DNA from: a virus
Strand: one strand, 5' to 3'
IMG/VR virus record: IMGVR_UViG_3300027849_000030
Coordinates: 1 to 34,704 of that record
DNA: 34,704 bases
This document shows, piece after piece, positions 5,648 to 15,691 of this stretch; position 1 is the stretch's first letter; the number at the start of each line of letters is the position of its first letter. Under the pieces are notes generated by a model, which was not told where the DNA came from, did not search any database, and was given only the letters and a program-made list of their open reading frames with translations. The translations under genes were made by a program, and so were the position numbers.

Positions 5648-5655
5648 TATAAATA
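5648..5655 (+). promoter_or_regulatory. T4-late-promoter-like box TATAAATA
   Basis: TATAAATA is the consensus -10 of T4 late promoters, recognised by sigma gp55. This copy is intergenic, just upstream of the long operon starting at 5722, and lies directly before a sigma70-like promoter. In DNA this AT-rich the octamer also occurs by chance, so its position is the main support. Confidence 0.5.
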
Positions 5656-5721: not shown

Positions 5722-7089
5722 ATGAAAAGTTTCTTATCCACTTTAGAAAAAATCCGTGAAGGCGTTAGGCTTTCTCCAGCTCAAATGAAAAAGCCTAATG
5801 GTAATACAGGTGAACAACGTATTGACATTCTTGCACGACTTATTAGAGATGGTAAGCCTCTTGAATTGTCAAGTGGCGGACTTTTTAAAGTTACTGAAAT
5901 AGAAGATGCTTTAAAGCAATGTGAAATATTTAAGAAACTTGGTCAAGCTTTTAGTCTCCATGGAGATGGTAAGACCATTAGTTCATCAGATCTTGGTAAG
6001 AGTAAAGTATTCGGTGGTGGCGGTGGCGCTGGCGGCGGAACTCTTAATACCAAGATTACTGAAAGTCATCAATGTGTTATATGTCAGGCTATGCTTGATA
6101 ATGGTATGCAAAGCGAAGACTTCTTTATGCAAGAAGACGTTCTTAAAGCTGCGTTTGGAAGAGTCTATGTTGATGCCTCATTTGAAGAAATACTAAGTGT
6201 AGAAGACAGTTGGTTCCATTCATCATATGAGTCTGCTAAGATCTTAGTCAAAGAGGGTTATATTAATAAGTCTCAAACATTCCACAGAAACAGTAAGTTA
6301 ATGAATACTGTTTATGCTTATAAAAACGTAGCATATAAAAATTCAGATCAAAAACCAGTCAAAGATGATAAGTGGAATCCAGGTGACTTCTGGGCAGTGG
6401 AAAAATCATTTGATCTTAAATCTCTTGATACAAGTTCAATCGCTGCTTATAATAAGTCATTACTACAAGCATTCGTTGATCGTCAATTGGTTGGTATATC
6501 CCTTAAGCTAGTCAAAAAGAAAGCAAAAGCTAAAGAATATAACATTAAACTCCCACCTGATACCGATGATCATAAACTACTTAAGATACTACTTCAAGGC
6601 GAAAAGCGTGGAACCTTTTGGACAAACAAAGGTGCTTTGATTATGTTTGACGAAGGTAAGTTTGAATTAAGAGCTGGTTCTGCTGGTGGAGCGATCAAAG
6701 GCGAGATTGCTCTTAAAACTGCTAGAGGTGGTGGAGCTGGATACGGTATTATGGCAGAAGCTATAAAATTAGTATTTAAAAGAAAAATACCAGACAACAA
6801 GAAAATCACTCAAATTGCTAAAAAGATAGTTAAAGGTGATAAGACATCAATAAAAGAATTTTATAGACTATACAATCACTTCTATAAAAACGAATCATTT
6901 GAAAGCTTTGAACAAGAGTTATCTAAGAAAGACGTTTATTGGATAGGATCAAAACTAGGATGTCTATATGTAGTTTATATAGTTGATGTTAATACTGGAA
7001 CAAAAGCTAATAGATGGCTAACTAAAATTATAAACTATGCTGGATCTAAGTCAGAAGATTCAAGCGCATACGTAAAGGTATATGAATAA
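5722..7089 (+). CDS. Large phage protein with capsid-tag-like N terminus and Gly-rich linker
   Basis: The 455-residue product starts at ATG 5722 (AAAGG upstream at 5707-5711); the ATG at 5677 lies inside the promoter. It opens with M-K-S-F-L-S-T-L-E-K-I-R-E-G, the tag shared by many proteins of this operon. A glycine run (G-G-G-G-G-A-G-G-G, about 98-106) is followed by T-E-S-H-Q-C-V-I-C-Q-A. I recall similar Gly-rich segments before a cysteine-containing patch in proteins of other T4-like phages. No enzyme motif is recognised. Being first of the cluster and tagged, it may be a virion-associated or internal head protein. This is inference. Confidence 0.85.
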   Translation: MKSFLSTLEKIREGVRLSPAQMKKPNGNTGEQRIDILARLIRDGKPLELSSGGLFKVTEIEDALKQCEIFKKLGQAFSLHGDGKTISSSDLGKSKVFGGGGGAGGGTLNTKITESHQCVICQAMLDNGMQSEDFFMQEDVLKAAFGRVYVDASFEEILSVEDSWFHSSYESAKILVKEGYINKSQTFHRNSKLMNTVYAYKNVAYKNSDQKPVKDDKWNPGDFWAVEKSFDLKSLDTSSIAAYNKSLLQAFVDRQLVGISLKLVKKKAKAKEYNIKLPPDTDDHKLLKILLQGEKRGTFWTNKGALIMFDEGKFELRAGSAGGAIKGEIALKTARGGGAGYGIMAEAIKLVFKRKIPDNKKITQIAKKIVKGDKTSIKEFYRLYNHFYKNESFESFEQELSKKDVYWIGSKLGCLYVVYIVDVNTGTKANRWLTKIINYAGSKSEDSSAYVKVYE

Positions 7090-8330
7090 TGAAAGGCTTT
7101 AAGAACCAACTAGCTGAAGCAGCTGGAAAGAACACGCATATGACTCATATTGAAGATTTGATTCTTGATGGCGGAGTAAAAGGCGCGAGACAGGCCATAC
7201 TTGCATTAAGATCATTAAGAGATATGCTTTCTGGTAATGCAAAATCTGCAGTAGATGTTACTGTTAAATGGGATGGAGCTCCTGCTGTATTTGCTGGAGA
7301 AGATCCATCTGATGGTAAGTTCTTTGTTGCTAAGAAAGGCATCTTTAATGCTAATCCAAAGATCTATAAGTCTCACGAAGATATTGATGCTGATACTAGT
7401 GGTGATCTAAATAAAAAATTGAAAATGGCCTTTGATTACATTAAGCCTCTTGGAGTAAAAGGTGTAATCCAGGGTGACTTTATGTTTGATCAATCAGATC
7501 TTAAAAAGGAGAAAATAGATGGAGTTGTTCATATTGTCTTTCATCCTAATACTATCGCTTATGCAGTACCTAATGATACACCTCTTGCTAAGGAAATTGG
7601 ATCAGCTAAGATTGGAATTGTCTGGCATACAATCTATAGTGGAGCGACTTTTGAGACTATGAATGCTGAGTTTGGCAGACCAATTGTTTCAAAGTTAAAG
7701 CCATCTAAAAACGTTTGGATGGTCGATGCTACATTACCTGATTTGTCTGGTACTGCAACACTTACTAAATCAGAGACCGAAGCTCTTAATAACAAGCTTT
7801 CAGAAGCTGGTAAGTTATTTAGAAAAATATCAGGTTCTACACTAAAAGAATTAGAATCAAACAAAGAATTAAACCTTGTTATTAATGTATATAATAATAG
7901 GAAAGTTAGAGAAGGCCAAAGAATTACTAATACTAAGTCTCATGCAATGGGTCTTATTACCTTTGTCCAAGAACGTTATCAAAAAGAGATTGATAAAAGA
8001 AGTAGTCAAAAGGGTAAAGATACTCAAATTAATAAACGCGATGCATTACTTAAATTCTTTGATAAAACAAACTTAAAAAACTTACAAAATGTGTTTGATT
8101 TACAAAATTTAGTAGTAGATAGCAAATTAATTATTATAAATAAACTAAATGGTCTAAATAAAATTGGTACTTTTGTGAAGACTAAATCCGGATTTAAGGT
8201 AACCAACCCTGAGGGTTTTGTTGCTATAGATCGTATGGAAGGTGGCGCAGTTAAACTTGTTGATAGATTAGAATTCTCTACTAATAACTTCAGCAAGGAT
8301 ATTATTAAAGGTTGGGATAGTCCTAACTAA
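7089..8330 (+). CDS. Tagged protein with a ligase-like K-W-D-G motif
   Basis: The 413-residue product belongs to a family I recall from marine T4-like phages, possibly listed as DUF6267. It begins M-K-G-F-K-N-Q-L-A-E-A, very close to T4 capsid-targeting tags; a cut after E10 would match the T4 prohead-protease rule. The core has V-K-W-D-G-A-P-A-V-F (59-68), which fits motif I (K-x-D-G, adenylated lysine) of DNA/RNA ligases and capping enzymes. F-V-A-K-K-G-I-F (79-86) and V-I-Q-G-D-F (126-131) sit where motifs III and IIIa might be. A clear motif V is not obvious, so ligase activity is a hypothesis. The ATG overlaps the upstream stop (TAATG). Confidence 0.85.
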   Translation: MKGFKNQLAEAAGKNTHMTHIEDLILDGGVKGARQAILALRSLRDMLSGNAKSAVDVTVKWDGAPAVFAGEDPSDGKFFVAKKGIFNANPKIYKSHEDIDADTSGDLNKKLKMAFDYIKPLGVKGVIQGDFMFDQSDLKKEKIDGVVHIVFHPNTIAYAVPNDTPLAKEIGSAKIGIVWHTIYSGATFETMNAEFGRPIVSKLKPSKNVWMVDATLPDLSGTATLTKSETEALNNKLSEAGKLFRKISGSTLKELESNKELNLVINVYNNRKVREGQRITNTKSHAMGLITFVQERYQKEIDKRSSQKGKDTQINKRDALLKFFDKTNLKNLQNVFDLQNLVVDSKLIIINKLNGLNKIGTFVKTKSGFKVTNPEGFVAIDRMEGGAVKLVDRLEFSTNNFSKDIIKGWDSPN

Positions 8331-8348
8331 ATGGAACCGAGGATAACC

Positions 8349-8735
8349 ATGAAAACTTTTAAAGAACATAATGAAGAAGTCAGTGATGACTCTGTAGATA
8401 CTACAGAAGCTATGACTCTTCAGCATCGTATGAAAATGAAAGCTAGTTTCAGGAAGAATAAATCTAAGATTGCATTAGGTAAAAAGAAAGCTGCACGTAA
8501 ACTAGCATCTCCAGAAAAACTCAAAGGTCGCGCAACTAAGAAAGCTCGTGACATCATGATTCAAAAAATACTTAAGAATAAAAAGAAAGGTGATCTATCA
8601 TTCGCTGGTCGAGCTGGTATTGAAAAGCGTTTAGCTAGTAAAAAGGGTGCAATCGCGAAGATCGCTAAAAAGTTACTACCAGGCATTAAAAAGGCTGATA
8701 GAGCTAAATTAAAGAGCAAAGGTAAAGACAAATAA
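8349..8735 (+). CDS. Lys/Arg-rich tagged protein, likely nucleic-acid binding
   Basis: The 128-residue product starts at ATG 8349, six bases after GAGG (8339-8342); the in-frame ATG at 8331 has no such site. It opens with the tag-like M-K-T-F-K-E-H-N-E-E, then turns extremely basic: M-K-M-K-A-S-F-R-K-N-K-S-K, G-K-K-K-A-A-R-K, and many further Lys/Ala stretches to the C terminus. Comparable lysine-rich proteins occur in the same setting in cyanophages. High positive charge suggests DNA condensation or packaging with DNA in the head, as for T4 internal proteins. This is inference from composition. Confidence 0.8.
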   Translation: MKTFKEHNEEVSDDSVDTTEAMTLQHRMKMKASFRKNKSKIALGKKKAARKLASPEKLKGRATKKARDIMIQKILKNKKKGDLSFAGRAGIEKRLASKKGAIAKIAKKLLPGIKKADRAKLKSKGKDK

Positions 8736-8736
8736 T

Positions 8737-9924
8737 ATGGAAATTAAAAGCTTTAGCGACTATTTAACTGAAGCTAAAGGCGAAGTCTATTTCGTCTTTG
8801 GTAGATTTAATCCACCAACTTCAGGTCATGAGAAACTCTTTGACAAGCTAAAAGCGACTGCAGGTAGTAATCCATATCGTATATATGGCTCAAAGTCGCA
8901 AGATCCTAAAAAGAATCCTTTGTCATTTAAAGAGAAAGTAAAGTTCTTACGTAAAATGTTTCCAAAACATGCTCGTAGCATAATGGCTGATGGTGATGTT
9001 AGACATGTTATGGACATTGCTACTAAATTATATGACCAGGGTTATACCTCAGTAACTATGGTTGCTGGTTCAGATAGAGTACAAGAGTTTGATACTCTTC
9101 TTAATAAATATAACGGTGTCGATTCTAGACATGGTTTCTATAACTTCGAAAAGGGTATTAAAGTCGTTTCAGCTGGAGAAAGAGATCCAGATGCTGAAGG
9201 TGTTGAAGGTATGTCAGCATCTAAGTTAAGATCATTTGCTATAGATAACGATTTAGAAAACTTCTCAAAGGGAATGCCAAAAAGTTATAAAGATTCAAAA
9301 GCATTATTCAATGCAATTAGAAAGGGTATGGGTCTAAAAGAAACTCATATGCATCGCAAACATGTTGAATTAGAAACAGTATCAGAAAAAAGAGAACAGT
9401 TTGTAACAGGTAACCTTTATAAAGAAGGTGATGAAGTTGTTCTAAAAGAAACAAATCAAATCGGTGTTATTAATAGATGTGGTACTAACTTCTTAGTAGT
9501 CGAATTCGGCGAATGGAAGAAGAGAGTTTGGTTAGACGACGTTGAATTATTAGACGAAAAGAAATATACCGATATGGATTCAGAAGAAAAAGCTAAGCAC
9601 GACAAGCCAAAACCTAATGCTCCTGAAAGTCAACACACAAAGAATTTTAAAAAGAAGTTTGGTGAAATGAAAAGCTTTTCACAATCATTAGAAGAAGCTG
9701 ACGCTAAATCAGCTCTTATGAAAAAGGCTGATAAATCAGGAATGCCTTATAGTATCCTAAAGAAAGTATTTGATCGTGGCTATGCTGCTTGGAAGACAAG
9801 TCATAGACCAGGAACAAATCCAACTCAGTGGGGATTAGCTCGAGTCAACTCATTTACAACTAAATCATCTGGAACGTGGGGTAAAGCTGATAAAGATCTT
9901 GCTTCAAAGGTCAGGGGAAAATAA
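8737..9924 (+). CDS. Tagged multi-domain protein with cytidylyltransferase/NMNAT-like domain
   Basis: The 395-residue product is modular. Residues 1-13 are a tag (M-E-I-K-S-F-S-D-Y-L-T-E-A). Residues 16-195 form a nucleotidyltransferase fold: F-G-R-F-N-P-P-T-S-G-H (21-31) carries the (H/T)-x-G-H site, and M-S-A-S-K-L-R (159-165) matches the S-x-T/S-x-x-R motif. Such enzymes transfer a nucleotide to a phosphorylated substrate (NMNAT, pantetheine phosphate or glycerol phosphate type). Residues 226-275 look like a small beta-barrel. Residues 311-321 repeat the tag inside the protein (M-K-S-F-S-Q-S-L-E-E-A), followed by a module with S-G-M-P-Y-S-I-L-K-K-V and H-R-P-G-T, known as a stand-alone unit in other phages. 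The architecture suggests a gene fusion. The substrate is unknown. Confidence 0.88.
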   Translation: MEIKSFSDYLTEAKGEVYFVFGRFNPPTSGHEKLFDKLKATAGSNPYRIYGSKSQDPKKNPLSFKEKVKFLRKMFPKHARSIMADGDVRHVMDIATKLYDQGYTSVTMVAGSDRVQEFDTLLNKYNGVDSRHGFYNFEKGIKVVSAGERDPDAEGVEGMSASKLRSFAIDNDLENFSKGMPKSYKDSKALFNAIRKGMGLKETHMHRKHVELETVSEKREQFVTGNLYKEGDEVVLKETNQIGVINRCGTNFLVVEFGEWKKRVWLDDVELLDEKKYTDMDSEEKAKHDKPKPNAPESQHTKNFKKKFGEMKSFSQSLEEADAKSALMKKADKSGMPYSILKKVFDRGYAAWKTSHRPGTNPTQWGLARVNSFTTKSSGTWGKADKDLASKVRGK

Positions 9925-10274
9925 TGAAAGAGTTTAACGAATTCTTAAATGAAGGAAAATCAGCATCTTCACGATTAACCAGTCGTCTTAAAAGCAAAGG
10001 TCTTGACTTAGATAAAAAGGCAAAGGATCGTAAAGCTGAACATGATAAGCTTAAAGCTAAATACGCTAAAGAAGATACCCTAGATGAAGCTCCTCTTGTA
10101 ATGAAAGACGCTGACATCCTTGATTCAATTTGGGATAAAGTAAAACCTGAACTACAGAAGATGTTAAGAAGTGGTAACTTAGAAACTGTTAATAACTTTG
10201 CTCGTATTGGTAAGTATAGAATAAGCAAAGACAAGCAGAGTAAAGGTAAAACCTATAGGTATGATCTTAAGTAA
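9924..10274 (+). CDS. Small tagged protein, function unknown
   Basis: The 116-residue product begins M-K-E-F-N-E-F-L-N-E-G, a near copy of the T4 internal-protein tag with the putative cut after E10. Residues 15-50 are a highly charged helix rich in Lys, Asp and Glu. A second possible protease site, T-L-D-E-A, lies at 52-56. The C-terminal 60 residues form a separate compact segment (I-L-D-S-I-W-D-K-V-K-P-E-L-Q-K-M-L). The ATG overlaps the previous stop by one base and the stop overlaps the next ATG by one base. No family recognised beyond the tag. Confidence 0.78.
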   Translation: MKEFNEFLNEGKSASSRLTSRLKSKGLDLDKKAKDRKAEHDKLKAKYAKEDTLDEAPLVMKDADILDSIWDKVKPELQKMLRSGNLETVNNFARIGKYRISKDKQSKGKTYRYDLK

Positions 10275-10942
10275 TGGATAATTTTAAAGAGCATTTTGAA
10301 CTAATGGAAGGTGTCAACGATCCTTCTATTTTTAAAGCTATATTCCTAGCAGGTGGGCCAGGTTCTGGTAAATCATTTGTTGTAGGTAAAACAGCTCTTC
10401 AGGCACTTGGATTTAGATTAATTAATTCAGACGATGCTTTTGAAAAGGGATTAAAGAAAGCAGGACTTACAGCTTCTCCAGAGGATATTGCGTCAGCTCA
10501 AGGTCAATCTGCTCGTGCTAAAGCAAAAGCAATTACTGGTAAGAAAATGAACTTTGCTCTTGAAGGTAGATTGGGTATTGTTATTGATGGTACTGGTAAG
10601 GATTATGCTAAGATTAAAAAGCAAGTCGATATGTTAAGAGAGATAGGTTATGCTGTACATATGATATTTGTTAATACTGATTTAGATACAGCTTTAGAAA
10701 GAAACAAAACGAGAGATCGATCTTTAGAAGATAGCTTAGTTACTAAAATGTGGAAAGATGTTCAAAAGAATATTGGTAAATTCCAAGGGTTATTTAGAAA
10801 TAGATTAATCATTGTTGATAACTCTAAAGGTTCTGATATTGAAGGTCAAACAATTGGCGCGTTTAAAAGAATAAAAACTTGGGCTGCCAAAGCTCCTGAA
10901 AACGCGATTGCTGCTAGATGGATAAAAGGACAGAAAAAATGA
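10274..10942 (+). CDS. Tagged P-loop kinase-like protein (zeta-toxin/polynucleotide-kinase-like)
   Basis: The 222-residue product opens with M-D-N-F-K-E-H-F-E-L-M-E-G, a variant of the operon's tag. Walker A is G-G-P-G-S-G-K-S (27-34), inside F-L-A-G-G-P-G-S-G-K-S. It is followed by L-I-N-S-D-D-A-F (49-56), the position of the catalytic aspartate in zeta toxins and the kinase domain of polynucleotide kinases. I-D-G-T-G-K-D-Y (about 98-105) and V-N-T-D-L-D-T-A-L-E-R-N (about 135-146) fit the adenylate-kinase-type core and lid. A phosphotransferase is well supported; whether the acceptor is RNA, a nucleotide or another small molecule is not visible. Coupled to both neighbours by overlaps. Confidence 0.85.
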   Translation: MDNFKEHFELMEGVNDPSIFKAIFLAGGPGSGKSFVVGKTALQALGFRLINSDDAFEKGLKKAGLTASPEDIASAQGQSARAKAKAITGKKMNFALEGRLGIVIDGTGKDYAKIKKQVDMLREIGYAVHMIFVNTDLDTALERNKTRDRSLEDSLVTKMWKDVQKNIGKFQGLFRNRLIIVDNSKGSDIEGQTIGAFKRIKTWAAKAPENAIAARWIKGQKK

Positions 10943-11394
10943 ATAACAGAGATGAATTAAAAGCCAGAGATAAAATAGTATCAACATTCACATCAAAGTG
11001 GAAGTACAAGCTTGATAAAGATCAATTTGGTGCTGCTGATTCGTGGAAGATTATATACTCAGCTGATGCTGATGGTAAATTTGTTGGTGATTGCGAAGAC
11101 TATTCTCTATCAATTCTATATAGACTATGTGGCGAAAGTCATCTTAAAATGTGGTGGATGTTACTTACCCATCAAGCAGGTATTTGTTTAGTAGGTCCAA
11201 GTAAGTGGAAAGTATCGCATGCCGTGTTAAGATACAAAGGCGAATACGTAGATAACTGGACTAGAAAGTTCGGTGCCAAAAACAATATAGAAAAGAATCA
11301 TACGTTCCATGTGTTTTATGGGTATGGTTGGGCATATCAAGTTGCTATTAAAATGATTATAAGTAAGATAGTAAGAACTATTAAGGGAACATAA
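10939..11394 (+). CDS. Transglutaminase-like cysteine protease (BTLCP type)
   Basis: The 151-residue product contains G-D-C-E-D-Y-S (50-56), S-H-A-V-L-R-Y (93-99) and V-D-N-W (104-107). Together these give the Cys-His-Asp triad (C52, H94, D105) of bacterial transglutaminase-like cysteine proteinases. The family is papain-fold and its members cleave proteins or act on amides. The ATG at 10939 overlaps the upstream stop as ATGA and has AAAAGGA eight bases upstream, so it is preferred to the in-frame ATG at 10918. It lacks the M-K-x-F tag of its neighbours. Possible roles are processing of virion proteins or attack on a host protein; neither can be decided here. Confidence 0.8.
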   Translation: MNNRDELKARDKIVSTFTSKWKYKLDKDQFGAADSWKIIYSADADGKFVGDCEDYSLSILYRLCGESHLKMWWMLLTHQAGICLVGPSKWKVSHAVLRYKGEYVDNWTRKFGAKNNIEKNHTFHVFYGYGWAYQVAIKMIISKIVRTIKGT

Positions 11395-11771
11395 TGCATA
11401 ATTTTTTAGAACATATCGAAGAAAGGTTTGGTTTATACGAAGGCGTTCAAGTCCCTTTGGAACAACCTATGATCGAAATCGATGAAGCTGGAGATCCTGA
11501 GCTAAATAAGCCTAAAAGATCTAGTGGCAAAAAGAAATATGTAGTTTATGTTAAAAATCCTAAGACTGGTAACGTAAAGAAAATCGAATTTGGCGACGAG
11601 AAAGGTGGTCTTACATCAAAGATTGGCGATAAAGATGCAGCAAAAAGCTTTGCGGCACGTCATAAATGTGATACAAAGACTGACAAAATGAAAGCAGGCT
11701 ATTGGGCGTGTCGTCTCCCGAAGTATGCTGCAGACTTGGGGCTTAAAGGTGGTGGAAATTACTTTTGGTAA
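11394..11771 (+). CDS. Tagged small protein with a conserved Cys-containing C-terminal domain
   Basis: The 125-residue product begins M-H-N-F-L-E-H-I-E-E-R-F-G-L-Y-E-G, an extended form of the tag, with a second candidate cut at I-D-E-A (29-32). Residues 45-125 form a domain I have seen in many phage and giant-virus proteins. It has Y-V-V-Y-V-K-N-P-K-T-G-N-V-K-K, then A-A-R-H-K-C-D-T-K-T-D-K, then Y-W-A-C-R-L-P-K-Y. The two Cys and the His could bind a metal. The function of the family is not known to me. The ATG overlaps the upstream stop by one base. Confidence 0.8.
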   Translation: MHNFLEHIEERFGLYEGVQVPLEQPMIEIDEAGDPELNKPKRSSGKKKYVVYVKNPKTGNVKKIEFGDEKGGLTSKIGDKDAAKSFAARHKCDTKTDKMKAGYWACRLPKYAADLGLKGGGNYFW

Positions 11772-12021
11772 ACCGTATTGGGAAGATGGCGAGGTAAGAA
11801 CCTTTGACCCAACGTGCGAAGATGCTGAATTCGTTTGGCATAGAGACTTTGAAGACAGAGAAATAGAAATTTTAGAAGGCGAAGGTTGGCAATTTCAAAT
11901 ACAGAAATGCTTGCCTTGGCTATTAAAAAAAGGAATGGTGTTCGATATCAAAAGTACCGAATATCATAGATTAATCAAAGGGGTAACACCTCTTAAATGT
12001 AGGGTTTACAAATATGCCTAA
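11749..12021 (+). CDS. Cupin-like small protein, probable GTG start
   Basis: The core reads F-V-W-H-R-D-F-E-D-R-E-I-E-I-L-E-G-E-G-W-Q-F-Q, then L-P-W-L-L-K-K-G-M-V-F-D-I, then Y-H-R-L-I-K-G. This pattern of beta strands with H-x-D and a later Y-H-R fits a single-domain cupin; similar proteins occur in other T4-like phages. The frame opens at ATG 11725, but this overlaps the previous gene by 47 bases. The two GTG codons at 11749 and 11752 give an N terminus (V-E-I-T-F-G-K-P-Y-W) that looks more natural. Product about 90 residues. Ligand and reaction unknown. Confidence 0.72.
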   Translation: MVEITFGKPYWEDGEVRTFDPTCEDAEFVWHRDFEDREIEILEGEGWQFQIQKCLPWLLKKGMVFDIKSTEYHRLIKGVTPLKCRVYKYA

Positions 12022-12319
12022 TGTTACTGCTACCCAGCAGAGAGCCGAAGCTCAATTAAGACTTGATCGTATAGAAACAAAGATCGATCAAATGGCCGAG
12101 GCTATTATTGCCTTAGCTCGAGCTGAAGAAAAGATTATAACTCTTGTTGAAATTAATAAGCAACAGGGAGTACAAATATTAGGTCTTATAAATAGAGTTG
12201 ATAAGTTAGATCAGGTCGTACGTGAAAATGCGGCAACGGTAAGTGTAATTAATAGATTGTTCTGGATTATCGCTGCGGCAGCCGCTACAGCTATTACGGG
12301 CATGCTTTTCATAAAATAG
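12014..12319 (+). CDS. Coiled-coil protein with C-terminal membrane anchor
   Basis: The 101-residue product has a long amphipathic helix (about 8-75) with regular hydrophobic spacing, consistent with a coiled coil. One hydrophobic segment follows at 82-100 (L-F-W-I-I-A-A-A-A-A-T-A-I-T-G-M-L-F-I), ending in Lys, so the protein is tail-anchored in the membrane. Similar small proteins are found in many phages, often near lysis or head genes. Its role is unknown. The ATG lies inside the last codons of the upstream gene. Confidence 0.72.
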   Translation: MPNVTATQQRAEAQLRLDRIETKIDQMAEAIIALARAEEKIITLVEINKQQGVQILGLINRVDKLDQVVRENAATVSVINRLFWIIAAAAATAITGMLFIK

Positions 12320-12329
12320 GAGAATACTG

Positions 12330-13010
12330 ATGAAAAAATATGAAGACGATATCATCGCAAGCGTAGCTCAAGCTGTTAGCGATGTAGTAGAAGGTAAAGT
12401 AAAAGAAGAAGTTAAATATCCACATGATATGTTTGATCCAAAGACTGGCGAAAAAGAAGTAGCTAAAGACGAAGCTGAACATAAAGCTCTTTCTAAAAAA
12501 GGTTATACCCATGACAAGCCAGAAGTTGATGAAGCTGATGAGCCTAAAGCTAAAGGCGAAAAAGATTTTGTTGCTAAGCATAAAGTTAAGAAGTCTGGCG
12601 AAAAAGAAGATGGTTCTGTAGTTAAAGAAGCTTCTTGTGACGACGATGAAGATCTTGACGAAGCTGTTGATAAAAAACTAGTTAAGAAAGCTGTAGAAAC
12701 TGCTCTTAAGATGGGTGGTAATATGACTGGTGCTGTTAAGAAAATCGAACAGATGATGAAAGGTCTATCTAAAGATAAAGAAGTAGCTGCTGCGTTACAA
12801 CTAGCTAATGAAGAAGTAAGCGAAGCTGTATTAGACGATGCTCATGCTATGAATACTCTTTTAGAAGATAAAGCTAAGTACAAAGCATTCTTTAACAAAG
12901 CTCTTAAGAAGTTTGGTGTTAAATCACCTGGTGAACTAGAAGGCGATAAGAAGAAAGAATTCTTTGATTACGTCGATGCTGGTTACGAGGCGGACAACGA
13001 AGAAGATTAG
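12330..13010 (+). CDS. Highly charged protein with possible multiple protease sites
   Basis: The 226-residue product follows AGGAG with good spacing. The N terminus M-K-K-Y-E-D-D-I-I-A is only a weak version of the operon's tag. Residues 20-115 are low-complexity and rich in Glu, Lys and Asp, with V-D-E-A (66-69) and L-D-E-A (109-112), both possible prohead-protease sites. The C-terminal 45 residues are a recurrent phage module (F-F-N-K-A-L-K-K-F-G-V-K-S-P-G-E-L, ending F-D-Y-V-D-A-G-Y). It seems likely to be packaged in, or to act during assembly of, the head. This is inference. Confidence 0.78.
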   Translation: MKKYEDDIIASVAQAVSDVVEGKVKEEVKYPHDMFDPKTGEKEVAKDEAEHKALSKKGYTHDKPEVDEADEPKAKGEKDFVAKHKVKKSGEKEDGSVVKEASCDDDEDLDEAVDKKLVKKAVETALKMGGNMTGAVKKIEQMMKGLSKDKEVAAALQLANEEVSEAVLDDAHAMNTLLEDKAKYKAFFNKALKKFGVKSPGELEGDKKKEFFDYVDAGYEADNEED

Positions 13011-13023
13011 TTATATATAATAT

Positions 13024-13395
13024 ATGATGAAATTATTTGACAAACTAACTAGTAGAAACTTTGAACTCTTTGCGTCACACCATTACAATAATCCTGAATG
13101 CTGTGACGTAGAGGAATTCAAAGACGACTTGACTAGATTTAAGTACCTAAAGCGATTACTTAGGCGATATGAACAATATGGCGATTTACAAGAAAGACTC
13201 ATATTGAACCACATTACTGTCTTATATAATGTTTTTGGTATTGAAGCAGCTAATAGAATGATGTGGTTTAAAATAGAACCAGAACACTATTCTATGTTAA
13301 AGACTTTTTTAATCTTCTTGAATTATTTACACGAAGATGCTAAGGTAGAAATACCATTAGATCAAGTCATAATAGATAAACTGAGGAAACTTTAA
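13024..13395 (+). CDS. Conserved T4-like phage protein, function unknown
   Basis: The 123-residue product is predicted all-helical. It matches a small family I recall from cyanophages and related T4-like phages, with F-D-K-L-T-S-R-N-F-E-L-F-A near the start, F-K-D-D-L-T-R-F-K-Y-L-K-R-L-L in the middle and V-F-G-I-E-A-A-N-R-M. It lies 13 bases after the previous stop in an AT-rich gap. ATG 13024 and ATG 13027 are both possible; neither has a clear ribosome site. The stop shares its last base with the next ATG. In relatives it also precedes the gene next to it here. Confidence 0.8.
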   Translation: MMKLFDKLTSRNFELFASHHYNNPECCDVEEFKDDLTRFKYLKRLLRRYEQYGDLQERLILNHITVLYNVFGIEAANRMMWFKIEPEHYSMLKTFLIFLNYLHEDAKVEIPLDQVIIDKLRKL

Positions 13396-13994
13396 TGAGC
13401 GTAGTCTCAAGAACAGCTGATTTATTCTATGCCTTTAGGTTTCTAAAGTTATTAGTTTCGTCTTGGGATAAGACCGATGCTTATGAACTAGGCATTATCG
13501 ACGCTGAAGGAAAAGTCCTTAAGAAAGCTAAAGATAGAAAAACACCACAAGAAAAATCAGCATATACCGTATTCCATAGACTAGTATTTAATCTAAAGCG
13601 ATTACTCAATAAGTTACCTGGTGGCGGAAGCAAACTAGCATCTTATGCATCAGCTTTATATTTAATTAAAGAACATACTGGTCTTACTGATGACGAGATC
13701 AAAGAAGTCTTAGATAAAGTCTTTGAAGATCTTGAAGACTTTATAGAAAGTGATATTTCTGAAAGTTCTTCATGGTTTGAAAAGAAGAATAGATTATCAC
13801 CTGGAACATACTTATTAACTCAATCAATTGCATCTCCGGACACCGGTGAAGTGATCGCTCATATAAATACTAGGGTAGAGGCTATTGATTTTACCGAAGC
13901 ATATGATAACATATTCGGTTTAAATATATATCAGGTCGAACATATGTTAACTAAGCAAAAAGTACTAGTAACTAGCGTGGATTTAAAACGATGA
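13395..13994 (+). CDS. Conserved T4-like phage protein, probable structural or assembly role
   Basis: The 199-residue product has the N terminus M-S-V-V-S-R-T-A-D-L-F-Y-A-F-R-F-L-K-L-L-V and later L-G-I-I-D-A-E-G-K, F-H-R-L-V-F-N-L-K-R-L, and F-G-L-N-I-Y-Q-V-E-H. I recognise this set from other T4-like phages, where it follows the same small gene as here. No enzymatic motif is visible. It lacks the M-K-x-F tag. Overlaps at both ends (one base upstream, ATGA downstream) place it firmly in the operon. Function not known. Confidence 0.82.
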   Translation: MSVVSRTADLFYAFRFLKLLVSSWDKTDAYELGIIDAEGKVLKKAKDRKTPQEKSAYTVFHRLVFNLKRLLNKLPGGGSKLASYASALYLIKEHTGLTDDEIKEVLDKVFEDLEDFIESDISESSSWFEKKNRLSPGTYLLTQSIASPDTGEVIAHINTRVEAIDFTEAYDNIFGLNIYQVEHMLTKQKVLVTSVDLKR

Positions 13995-14338
13995 AATCAT
14001 TTAAAGAAATACGAGAAATAGACATTGATAATCTTATTGACATGTCTGAAGCTGATCAATTAGCTCATATTGACACATTAAGCGAAGAGCAAATTGATGA
14101 ACTTATTGGGAAACTTGTAAAAGGAACTGCTAAGTTAGCTGGTAAAGCCGCTAAGGCTGGTGGAAAGCTAGCGTTTAAAGGCGCTAAAGCTGGTGTTAAA
14201 CGTTTAACACCACAAGGCCGTGCTGATGCTGCTAATAAGAAAGCTAATAAAATCGAAAGGCAGCGCAAAGCTAAAGATAATCTTAAAAAGGCTAAAGAAC
14301 GATTAGCTAAAGCAAAAGCTTCAAAGAAGGACTCATGA
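13991..14338 (+). CDS. Tagged Ala/Lys-rich basic protein
   Basis: The 115-residue product begins M-K-S-F-K-E-I-R-E-I, close to the shared tag. Residues 10-42 are acidic (D-I-D-N-L-I-D-M-S-E-A, T-L-S-E-E-Q-I-D-E-L). From residue 43 it becomes a repetitive, strongly basic Ala/Gly/Lys helix (K-G-T-A-K-L-A-G-K-A-A-K-A-G-G-K, R-Q-R-K-A-K-D-N-L-K-K-A-K). The sharp charge switch suggests an acidic leader that is cut away or masks a DNA-binding tail. This would fit an internal head protein, but composition is the only evidence. Confidence 0.78.
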   Translation: MKSFKEIREIDIDNLIDMSEADQLAHIDTLSEEQIDELIGKLVKGTAKLAGKAAKAGGKLAFKGAKAGVKRLTPQGRADAANKKANKIERQRKAKDNLKKAKERLAKAKASKKDS

Positions 14339-14544
14339 AATCATTTAACGATATGTGGGAAGACGCCGCTGCTAATTCAGTATCATCTGGCGGTGTATCA
14401 CTTCCAGCTGACGCAGCTAAGAAAAAGAAGAAAAAAGATTTATACGACGGACGAACTAAACTCGGACGTAAATTTGTAGAAAGAATTATGGCTAGGCGTA
14501 AAGCGGCCGAAGCAAAAAGGGAAATCAAAAATGAAAACGTTTAA
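14335..14544 (+). CDS. Small tagged basic protein
   Basis: The 69-residue product begins M-K-S-F-N-D-M-W-E-D-A-A-A. It then has a poly-lysine run (K-K-K-K-K-K, 29-34) and Y-D-G-R-T-K-L-G-R-K-F-V-E-R-I-M-A-R-R. Small proteins of this layout, with D-G-R-T-K followed by an Arg-rich helix, occur in other T4-like phages. ATGA overlap with the upstream gene; the 3' end overlaps the next gene by 14 bases. Function unknown; nucleic-acid binding is plausible. Confidence 0.75.
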   Translation: MKSFNDMWEDAAANSVSSGGVSLPADAAKKKKKKDLYDGRTKLGRKFVERIMARRKAAEAKREIKNENV

Positions 14545-15691
14545 AGACTTAAGAGAAGCCACTATGTCTACTTGGACAGTCACTGTTCAAAAGCCAGTTA
14601 ATAAGCTTAAGAAAGGCGATAAGCAAGTTGTTAAAGCTCGTTCTGGTTTTGAAGCAATTAATAAAGCTATGAAGTTGTGGAAAGATCCTGCTCTTAAAGC
14701 TGCTTCTGCTGATTCATTTAAGATTACTAAAGAATCTATTGACGAAGGCAAAATGAAGCGTAATCCAGCTATTGATAACAACCCAGATGTTAAAGCTGCT
14801 CGTAAAGCTCATGCAGATGGTACTTGGGATGGCAACGTAGATAAAGAAGGCGAAGCTATTGTACATATCAAAGGTAAACCATACACTGTAACGAACAATA
14901 ATGAATCAGTCAAAGAAGGCAAAATGAAAGAGCTTCAGGACTATATTGATCAAGGTAAATCAGCTGAATGGATTGCTAAGAAGATTGGTTACCCTGTTAA
15001 AGATGTTAAAGATTTCTTAAAAGGTTATCAGAAAGAAGACATTGATGAAGGCGTTGATAAATCAAGCCCAGTATACAAAGAATATCTTTCTTTAAAGAAA
15101 ATGTCTATTGGCGATTTACGTAAAATGGTCGGACAACAACACCGCGGTCCTGTAGACTTAAAGTCATACGACAAACAAGGCGCTATCTCAGATCTTTTAC
15201 GCAACAAGTTCGGTGGCAAGAAAGTTGATGCAGCAATGGGTCTTAACGAAGCTTTCTATAAAGCAGGTTCTGAGAAATCAAAGCTTGATAGTGGTTACCG
15301 TTCACACTTAAAAGATGACGAAGGTAAAACTGCTTATATTGGCAATGTATCTTATAAGAAAGCAGATACTGCTAAAGGCGAAGCTGAAGTTTATGGCGAT
15401 GCTTATTATAAAACTGCAGGTAAGTCTGGCAACGAACGTGCTGCTGATAAAGCTATTGTTAAATATAGACAAGCGCATAAAAAAGATATTGTTGAATCTT
15501 TAGACGAAGCTGTAAGTCCTATTGTTAAAAGCACTGCTGTCGGCCGAAAGAATCTACTTAAAGTTAACGCTGAAGTAGTTAAACTCATGGCATTGTCTGA
15601 TGATAAGACCATGAAGAAATACTATGCTGACATCTTAAAGCAATTAAATTGGGCTGATGGTAGATTAAAACAATTAGGTAAGCCAGAGTAG
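14531..15691 (+). CDS. Tagged modular protein with regularly spaced candidate protease sites
   Basis: The 386-residue product begins M-K-T-F-K-D-L-R-E-A. It is built of short unrelated modules joined by linkers that match the T4 prohead-protease rule (hydrophobic-x-E, then A or G): L-R-E-A (7-10), I-D-E-G (70-73), V-K-E-G (127-130), I-D-E-G (171-174), L-N-E-A (238-241) and L-D-E-A (324-327). Module 2 and module 3 both restart with G-K-M-K. One module (about 130-170) looks like a small helix-turn-helix (A-E-W-I-A-K-K-I-G-Y-P-V-K-D-V-K-D-F-L). If cut, it would release six short peptides. Individual module functions are unknown. The gene overlaps the previous one by 14 bases and ends the operon. 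Confidence 0.85.
   Translation: MKTFKDLREATMSTWTVTVQKPVNKLKKGDKQVVKARSGFEAINKAMKLWKDPALKAASADSFKITKESIDEGKMKRNPAIDNNPDVKAARKAHADGTWDGNVDKEGEAIVHIKGKPYTVTNNNESVKEGKMKELQDYIDQGKSAEWIAKKIGYPVKDVKDFLKGYQKEDIDEGVDKSSPVYKEYLSLKKMSIGDLRKMVGQQHRGPVDLKSYDKQGAISDLLRNKFGGKKVDAAMGLNEAFYKAGSEKSKLDSGYRSHLKDDEGKTAYIGNVSYKKADTAKGEAEVYGDAYYKTAGKSGNERAADKAIVKYRQAHKKDIVESLDEAVSPIVKSTAVGRKNLLKVNAEVVKLMALSDDKTMKKYYADILKQLNWADGRLKQLGKPE

Follow-up and report, generated by a model that had tools for sequence, protein, structure and literature searches.

A putative T4-type capsid-targeting tag shared by ten proteins of one operon in a marine T4-like phage

The IMG/VR virus record IMGVR_UViG_3300027849_000030 is a 34.7-kb fragment of a marine T4-like phage with uvsX and gp41 helicase genes, and the whole of this stretch (positions 1 to 34,704) is called the window in the following. 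Between gp41 and nrdA the window carries an operon in which ten proteins begin with a common short N-terminal tag. The tag is interpreted here, with a probability of roughly 0.85, as a T4-type capsid-targeting propeptide, with the operon expressed late and the tagged products being cargo that is cut by the prohead protease gp21, carried in the virion and probably ejected together with the DNA.

The shared N-terminal tag

All ten N termini were found at the proposed gene starts (genes are named by their start positions) and in the form described in the original prediction, an F close behind the initiator Met. The further claim that most of the tags continue to L/I-x-E and then A or G also held, the site being clean in seven of the ten. 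A two-part profile, K-x-F-x-x-aromatic followed at variable distance by L/I-x-E-A/G, was trained on relatives of the window tags and gave the ten genes scores of 15.6–21.7, with all other window genes at 8.2 or below. At the pass threshold of 12, applied to the window, lambda and SPO1 counts, 10 of 14 called genes in the block and 0 of 48 outside it were positive (Fisher p=9e-9), in agreement with the claim that no gene outside the block starts in this way. When each family in turn was left out of training, nine of the ten scored 12.0–18.7 and untagged window genes at most 9.0, with 14335 borderline at 7.4, and only 0.1% of shuffled N termini reached 11.9. No tag was found among 55 lambda proteins or 74 proteins from the first 50 kb of SPO1. 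Gene starts were taken partly from a simple caller, which matched 79% of the annotated S-CREM2 starts.

The motif exists at the protein level: tag codons vary from gene to gene, which rules out an origin as a DNA repeat. In most orthologs the F occupies residue 3–7, and the cut site is retained despite indels. Orthologs of 10274 keep both tag and cut, the cut is retained in 25/25 distinct N termini orthologous to 11394, and in the 5722 orthologs F4 and the cut Glu are invariant while the spacer length varies. The tag was disordered in both structure models. In total, 555 tagged genes from 80 loci and seven longer genomes, the window included, fell into 37 body families; the relatives are not independent, so p-values over them overstate significance. 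A nucleotide search of phages for the block gave no match, and no description of the tag in marine phages was found in the open-access literature searched.

T4 likeness, probable late expression and virion data

The T4 internal protein (IP) IPIII begins with MKTYQEFIAE; of this sequence, residues 4 and 7 are important for targeting and residues 8 and 10 for cleavage, which gp21 performs after L/I-X-E (PMC9026906). With T4 absent from training, the marine profile gave its five highest scores among 266 T4 proteins to gp61.1, IPII, IPIII, ndd.1 and IPI, in that order, a match that supports the T4-type capsid-targeting reading first proposed from the tag alone. In T4 IPI (MKTFKEFTSTTTPVSTITE, cut then A) the targeting part stands apart from the downstream L/I-x-E, and the two parts are likewise separable in 5722, 10274 and 11394. 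The tagged window proteins are basic, as T4 internal proteins are. The best T4 score belonged to gene 61.1 (L088:18966-19130; MKTFKEFIKED), annotated as hypothetical, and its product is, from its N terminus, a candidate for a further T4 internal protein.

In six long relatives and in phage C48C1, the contig that carries the tagged block also encodes Peptidase_S77 (gp21). Candidate cuts in the gp23 proteins of relatives (GNYISE/A, GNFIAE/D and GFLTE/T, the slash marking the cut) belong to the type seen where the tags end.

In 28 of 29 relatives the T4-type late promoter core TATAAATA precedes the 5722 ortholog by 47–76 bp (background 4.4%); in one relative, G001, it also stands before sheath, portal, prohead-core and tail genes and both tagged loci. 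Its count over the whole window was not above chance, only the position being conserved, and CTAAATA, tried as a further motif, was uninformative. Because TATAAATA is conserved at its head, the tagged operon is probably expressed late, with the head genes; late products must be packaged if they are to act as the next infection begins. A tagged gene for an HAD-type phosphatase-like protein in G001 (L103:11037-11642) lies outside the main block and has a TATAAATA of its own.

Virion data were taken from published cyanophage proteomes. Cytidyltransferases orthologous to 8737 are reported there in virions of S-SM1, S-SCSM1, S-SZBM1 and S-CREM2 (PMC3037559, PMC9602691, PMC9146016, PMC10665884). Among the S-CREM2 proteins listed as detected by mass spectrometry (MS), the tag is carried by an S-adenosylmethionine (SAM) hydrolase (MKDFDSFLEEF), an APH-like kinase (VKRFDAFLTEE) and the cytidyltransferase (MKNFSSFLTEA); the same tag or one close to it is found in a Cas9-like nuclease (RFASFMAEA near residue 18) and in the unknowns gp13, gp15 and gp136. 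At a score of 8, 7/26 detected non-structural or unknown proteins passed, compared with 3/167 undetected proteins and 0/26 tail and head proteins (p=3.4e-5), and a simple pattern in place of the profile gave a weaker result in the same direction (p=0.003). In the reverse test, with training on virion-proven tags only, tagged window genes were separated from untagged ones with an area under the curve of 0.92 (p=1.4e-5).

In S-SZBM1, S-CREM2 and Syn9 the syntenic block precedes primase and nrdA and holds further, untagged virion proteins. A stretch resembling the mature N-terminal arm of gp23, GFTGAAAPxGPxAGxDPVM, is found in MS-detected S-CREM2 gp160 (L085:28342-29235) and in Syn9 gp190 (L217:10455-10979), which is annotated as a head protein. 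Cyanophages have additional tagged genes next to MS-detected proteins, in the interval separating the small and large terminase subunit genes (S-SZBM1 _191 and _192, L220:5312-6126; S-CREM2 gp136, L085:7301-8014).

Exchange, chains and predicted functions of the proposed cargo

DUF6267 is tagged in the window clade, C48C1, Melnitz and DLP6, and untagged in 80/80 cyanophage-like loci, in which the protein starts M-A/S-KNTHL, adjoining the predicted cut. Since the untagged form begins beside that cut, the tag is a detachable module. The 5722 slot is occupied in relatives by unrelated tagged proteins, one of them REase_II-like. Type II restriction-enzyme-like proteins occur in this slot elsewhere, tagged in L031 (8999-10000) and untagged in DLP6 (L216:12079-12996).

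Some cargo is fused. DUF5824, a separate tagged gene in C48C1, is joined in the window to the cytidyltransferase behind an internal tag, and its fused joins have L/I/M/V-x-E in 64/67 cases (background 12.6% per 10-mer). For the second module of 9924, 24 relatives have a stand-alone tagged gene and 26 have a fusion, with the same motif at every one of the 26 joins. At a control join in the 8737 protein, next to the KOW-like part, the motif was present in 56/79; relatives share joins, so these counts are not independent events and it is chiefly the separate tagged copies that carry the chain argument. In 14531, five inner sites were counted against 0.6 expected (p<0.001), its first module is a separate tagged gene of 67–71 amino acids in relatives, and a two-module version occurs in L004. 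Several tagged proteins are, from these sequence patterns, probably cargo polyproteins joined at L/I-x-E and cut by gp21. Chains of this kind, with protease sites at the joins, would be novel among internal head proteins, and they were not part of the original prediction.

The expectation that several tagged proteins are enzymes was borne out for predicted functions, with a cytidyltransferase (8737) and a kinase, 10274 being AAA_33, zeta-toxin and polynucleotide-kinase-like with a P-loop. In DUF6267 the motifs KWDG and EGFVA, which fit motif I (KxDG) and motif IV (EGxV), are invariant; its best fold matches were ligases, not significant (E 0.46), T4 Rnl1 aligned weakly at motif IV (E 0.11), and DUF6267 is possibly a ligase-type nucleotidyltransferase. 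The 5722 protein has conserved WNPGD...ISLK residues and gave no match in fold and homology searches; these residues, with the REase_II matches of unrelated proteins in the same slot, hint faintly at a PD-(D/E)XK-like nuclease. The remaining tagged proteins are mostly small and basic, and PADLOC found no match for six window proteins. One of the T4 internal proteins, IPI, blocks a restriction system, and another, IPIII, is required on one E. coli strain (PMC9391042); by analogy, a counter-defence role is plausible for the tagged set.

The features of the block are listed below. The untagged genes 13024 and 13395 belong to families that marine T4-like phages also carry in this block.

Features of the tagged operon in the window (aa, amino acids; slash, predicted cut)
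Feature	Position	Strand	Details
Late promoter core TATAAATA, T4-type	5648..5655	+	Heads tagged operon; lies in the one sizeable gap ahead of it
Tagged protein 1, 455 aa, phrog_1462, function not assigned by family	5722..7089	+	Tag MKSFLSTLEKIRE, cut then GV
Tagged DUF6267 protein, 413 aa	7089..8330	+	Tag MKGFKNQLAE/AAGKNTHM; Pfam DUF6267 E 5e-103
Tagged small basic protein, 128 aa, charge +29	8349..8735	+	Start MKTFKEHNEEVSDD, tag MKTFKEHNEEVS, cut site weak
Tagged cytidyltransferase/NMNAT-like + KOW-like part + DUF5824	8737..9924	+	Tag MEIKSFSDYLTE, cut then AK
Internal tag in 8737 before DUF5824	9658..9705 (approximate; residues 308-323)	+	MKSFSQSLEE/ADAKSA; profile score 15.1
Tagged two-module protein, 116 aa	9924..10274	+	Tag MKEFNEFLNE/GK; inner site DTLDE/APLV
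Tagged P-loop kinase (predicted), 222 aa	10274..10942	+	Tag MDNFKEHFELME, cut then GV; Pfam AAA_33 1.8e-12
Untagged operon gene, weak phage peptidase family match	10918..11394	+	phrog_12671 E 2e-4; orthologs also without tag
Tagged protein, 125 aa, phrog_7595	11394..11771	+	Tag MHNFLEHIEERFGLYE, cut then GV
Four untagged block genes (12014, 12330, 13024, 13395)	12014..13994	+	
Tagged small basic protein, 115 aa	13991..14338	+	Tag MKSFKEIREIDID
Tagged small basic protein, 69 aa	14335..14544	+	Tag MKSFNDMWED/AA; borderline in leave-one-out test
Tagged chain, about six small modules, 386 aa	14531..15691	+	Tag MKTFKDLRE/AT; inner sites SIDE/G, DIDE/G, LNE/A, LDE/A

Interpretation, alternatives and comparison with known systems

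The claim that the tagged proteins are packed inside the capsid is supported by the match to T4 internal proteins, by the enrichment among MS-detected S-CREM2 proteins and by gp21 in relatives, and also by the gp23 cut motif, the conserved late promoter, the gain and loss of the tag as a module, basic charge, and a small tagged gene next to gp21 in three relatives. For the window phage, we infer packaging, cutting at the predicted sites, injection and function, including any role in takeover or counter-defence. The operon would be switched on late from the TATAAATA promoter, and the first residues (F4 and mostly a hydrophobic, for instance aromatic, residue around position 7) would draw each tagged protein into the prohead core. 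A gp21 cut after L/I-x-E would then free the mature protein within the head, fused cargo probably being cut again at its L/I-x-E joins into separate modules. The cargo would ride in the virion and probably be ejected along with the DNA, so that the kinase, the cytidyltransferase/NMNAT-like protein, the possible ligase, the possible nuclease and the small basic proteins could act before phage gene expression.

Several points weigh against this interpretation. In 8349, 13991 and 14335, 3/10 of the tags, the F part is present and the cut site is weak or degenerate. The virion data consist of published proteomes of cyanophage relatives, which lie outside the close clade of the window, and CsCl-purified virions may hold contaminants, a caveat raised by the S-CREM2 authors themselves (PMC10665884). 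Untagged block proteins are likewise listed as MS-detected (S-SZBM1 _139 and _136; S-CREM2 gp156 and gp160), so the tag is not the sole route into the virion. A Mann-Whitney test over all 26 detected S-CREM2 proteins reached p=0.035 only, because most of the detected unknowns sit in the tail cluster. The search for gp21, suggested as a check, was positive on contigs of relatives and negative in the window, a fragment that stops short of the head genes.

The tagged proteins might instead be prohead-core or assembly parts comparable to T4 gp67 and gp68, which would be targeted, cut, and removed or kept, and not delivered to the host. This is unlikely in our judgement, yet it deserves serious weight: three relatives have a small tagged gene immediately before gp21, the spot of the T4 core proteins gp67/68, and T4 IPIII itself takes part in head assembly (PMC9026906). 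Against it, several tagged proteins are predicted enzymes (kinase and cytidyltransferase, and in S-CREM2 the SAM hydrolase and kinase), and slot cargo is swapped between relatives, unlike conserved core parts. The surroundings of the block, genes for replication and nucleotide metabolism and not the head cluster, would suit a tag that addresses proteins elsewhere in the infected cell (membrane, replisome or chaperone, for example) and is unrelated to the head; the T4 internal protein match, the MS detection of tagged proteins in virions, the protease-type cut motif shared with gp23 and the late promoter make such an address improbable. Least probable is a shared start that reflects bias in translation initiation or composition, or the trace of recent duplication, with no targeting role. 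MK-rich starts are indeed frequent in AT-rich phages, but duplication or bias fits poorly with the retention of F and cut Glu across variable spacers, and translation bias is ruled out by the 37 unrelated body families, the differing tag codons and the zero counts outside the block, in lambda and in SPO1.

If the tag is a capsid-targeting propeptide, a wider picture can be drawn, which we hold tentatively and with some doubt. The head would be an effector container with exchangeable cargo, any gene that acquires the tag being loaded and the protease separating chains in the capsid. At least a dozen proteins (nuclease, ligase, NAD-related enzyme, kinase and small basic proteins) would enter the cytoplasm with the DNA and counter first-response defences before phage transcription. 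The tag itself would let packaged proteins of marine T4-like phages be recognised from sequence and would give a route into the virion for enzymes reported in cyanophage particles with no known means of entry, and the cargo that ocean phages inject would become a list open to N-terminal proteomics.

Phage P1 DarA and related defence-against-restriction proteins are carried in the head and act against host defence; their targeting differs from that in the window. The giant phages SPN3US and phiKZ, similarly to the set described here, have many head-packaged proteins cut after Glu by a prohead protease, whereas their propeptides are mostly longer than 100 residues and a short shared tag is absent (PMC5694885). 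In cyanophages S-CREM2, S-SZBM1, S-SCSM1 and S-SM1, the virion cytidyltransferase is orthologous to that of the window and the S-CREM2 enzymes share the tag, which goes unmentioned in the consulted parts of the virion reports; compared with cyanophages, the window clade tags more genes, DUF6267 among them. The closest likeness is to T4, in which the tagged set comprises IPI–III, Alt and one or two further candidates. These proteins share with the window set a short tag at the N terminus, aromatic at position 4 and with a cut after L/I-x-E, basic and exchangeable bodies, variable spacing (IPI), and gp21, here in the genomes of relatives. The window differs in having F instead of Y at residue 4, some cargo fused into chains with inner cut sites, and ten tagged genes in one operon, several of them for predicted enzymes. 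The original wording, far more than T4 has, holds for gene number, with 10 here and 8–10 in two long relatives, and the set as a whole is a variant of T4 capsid targeting, much enlarged.

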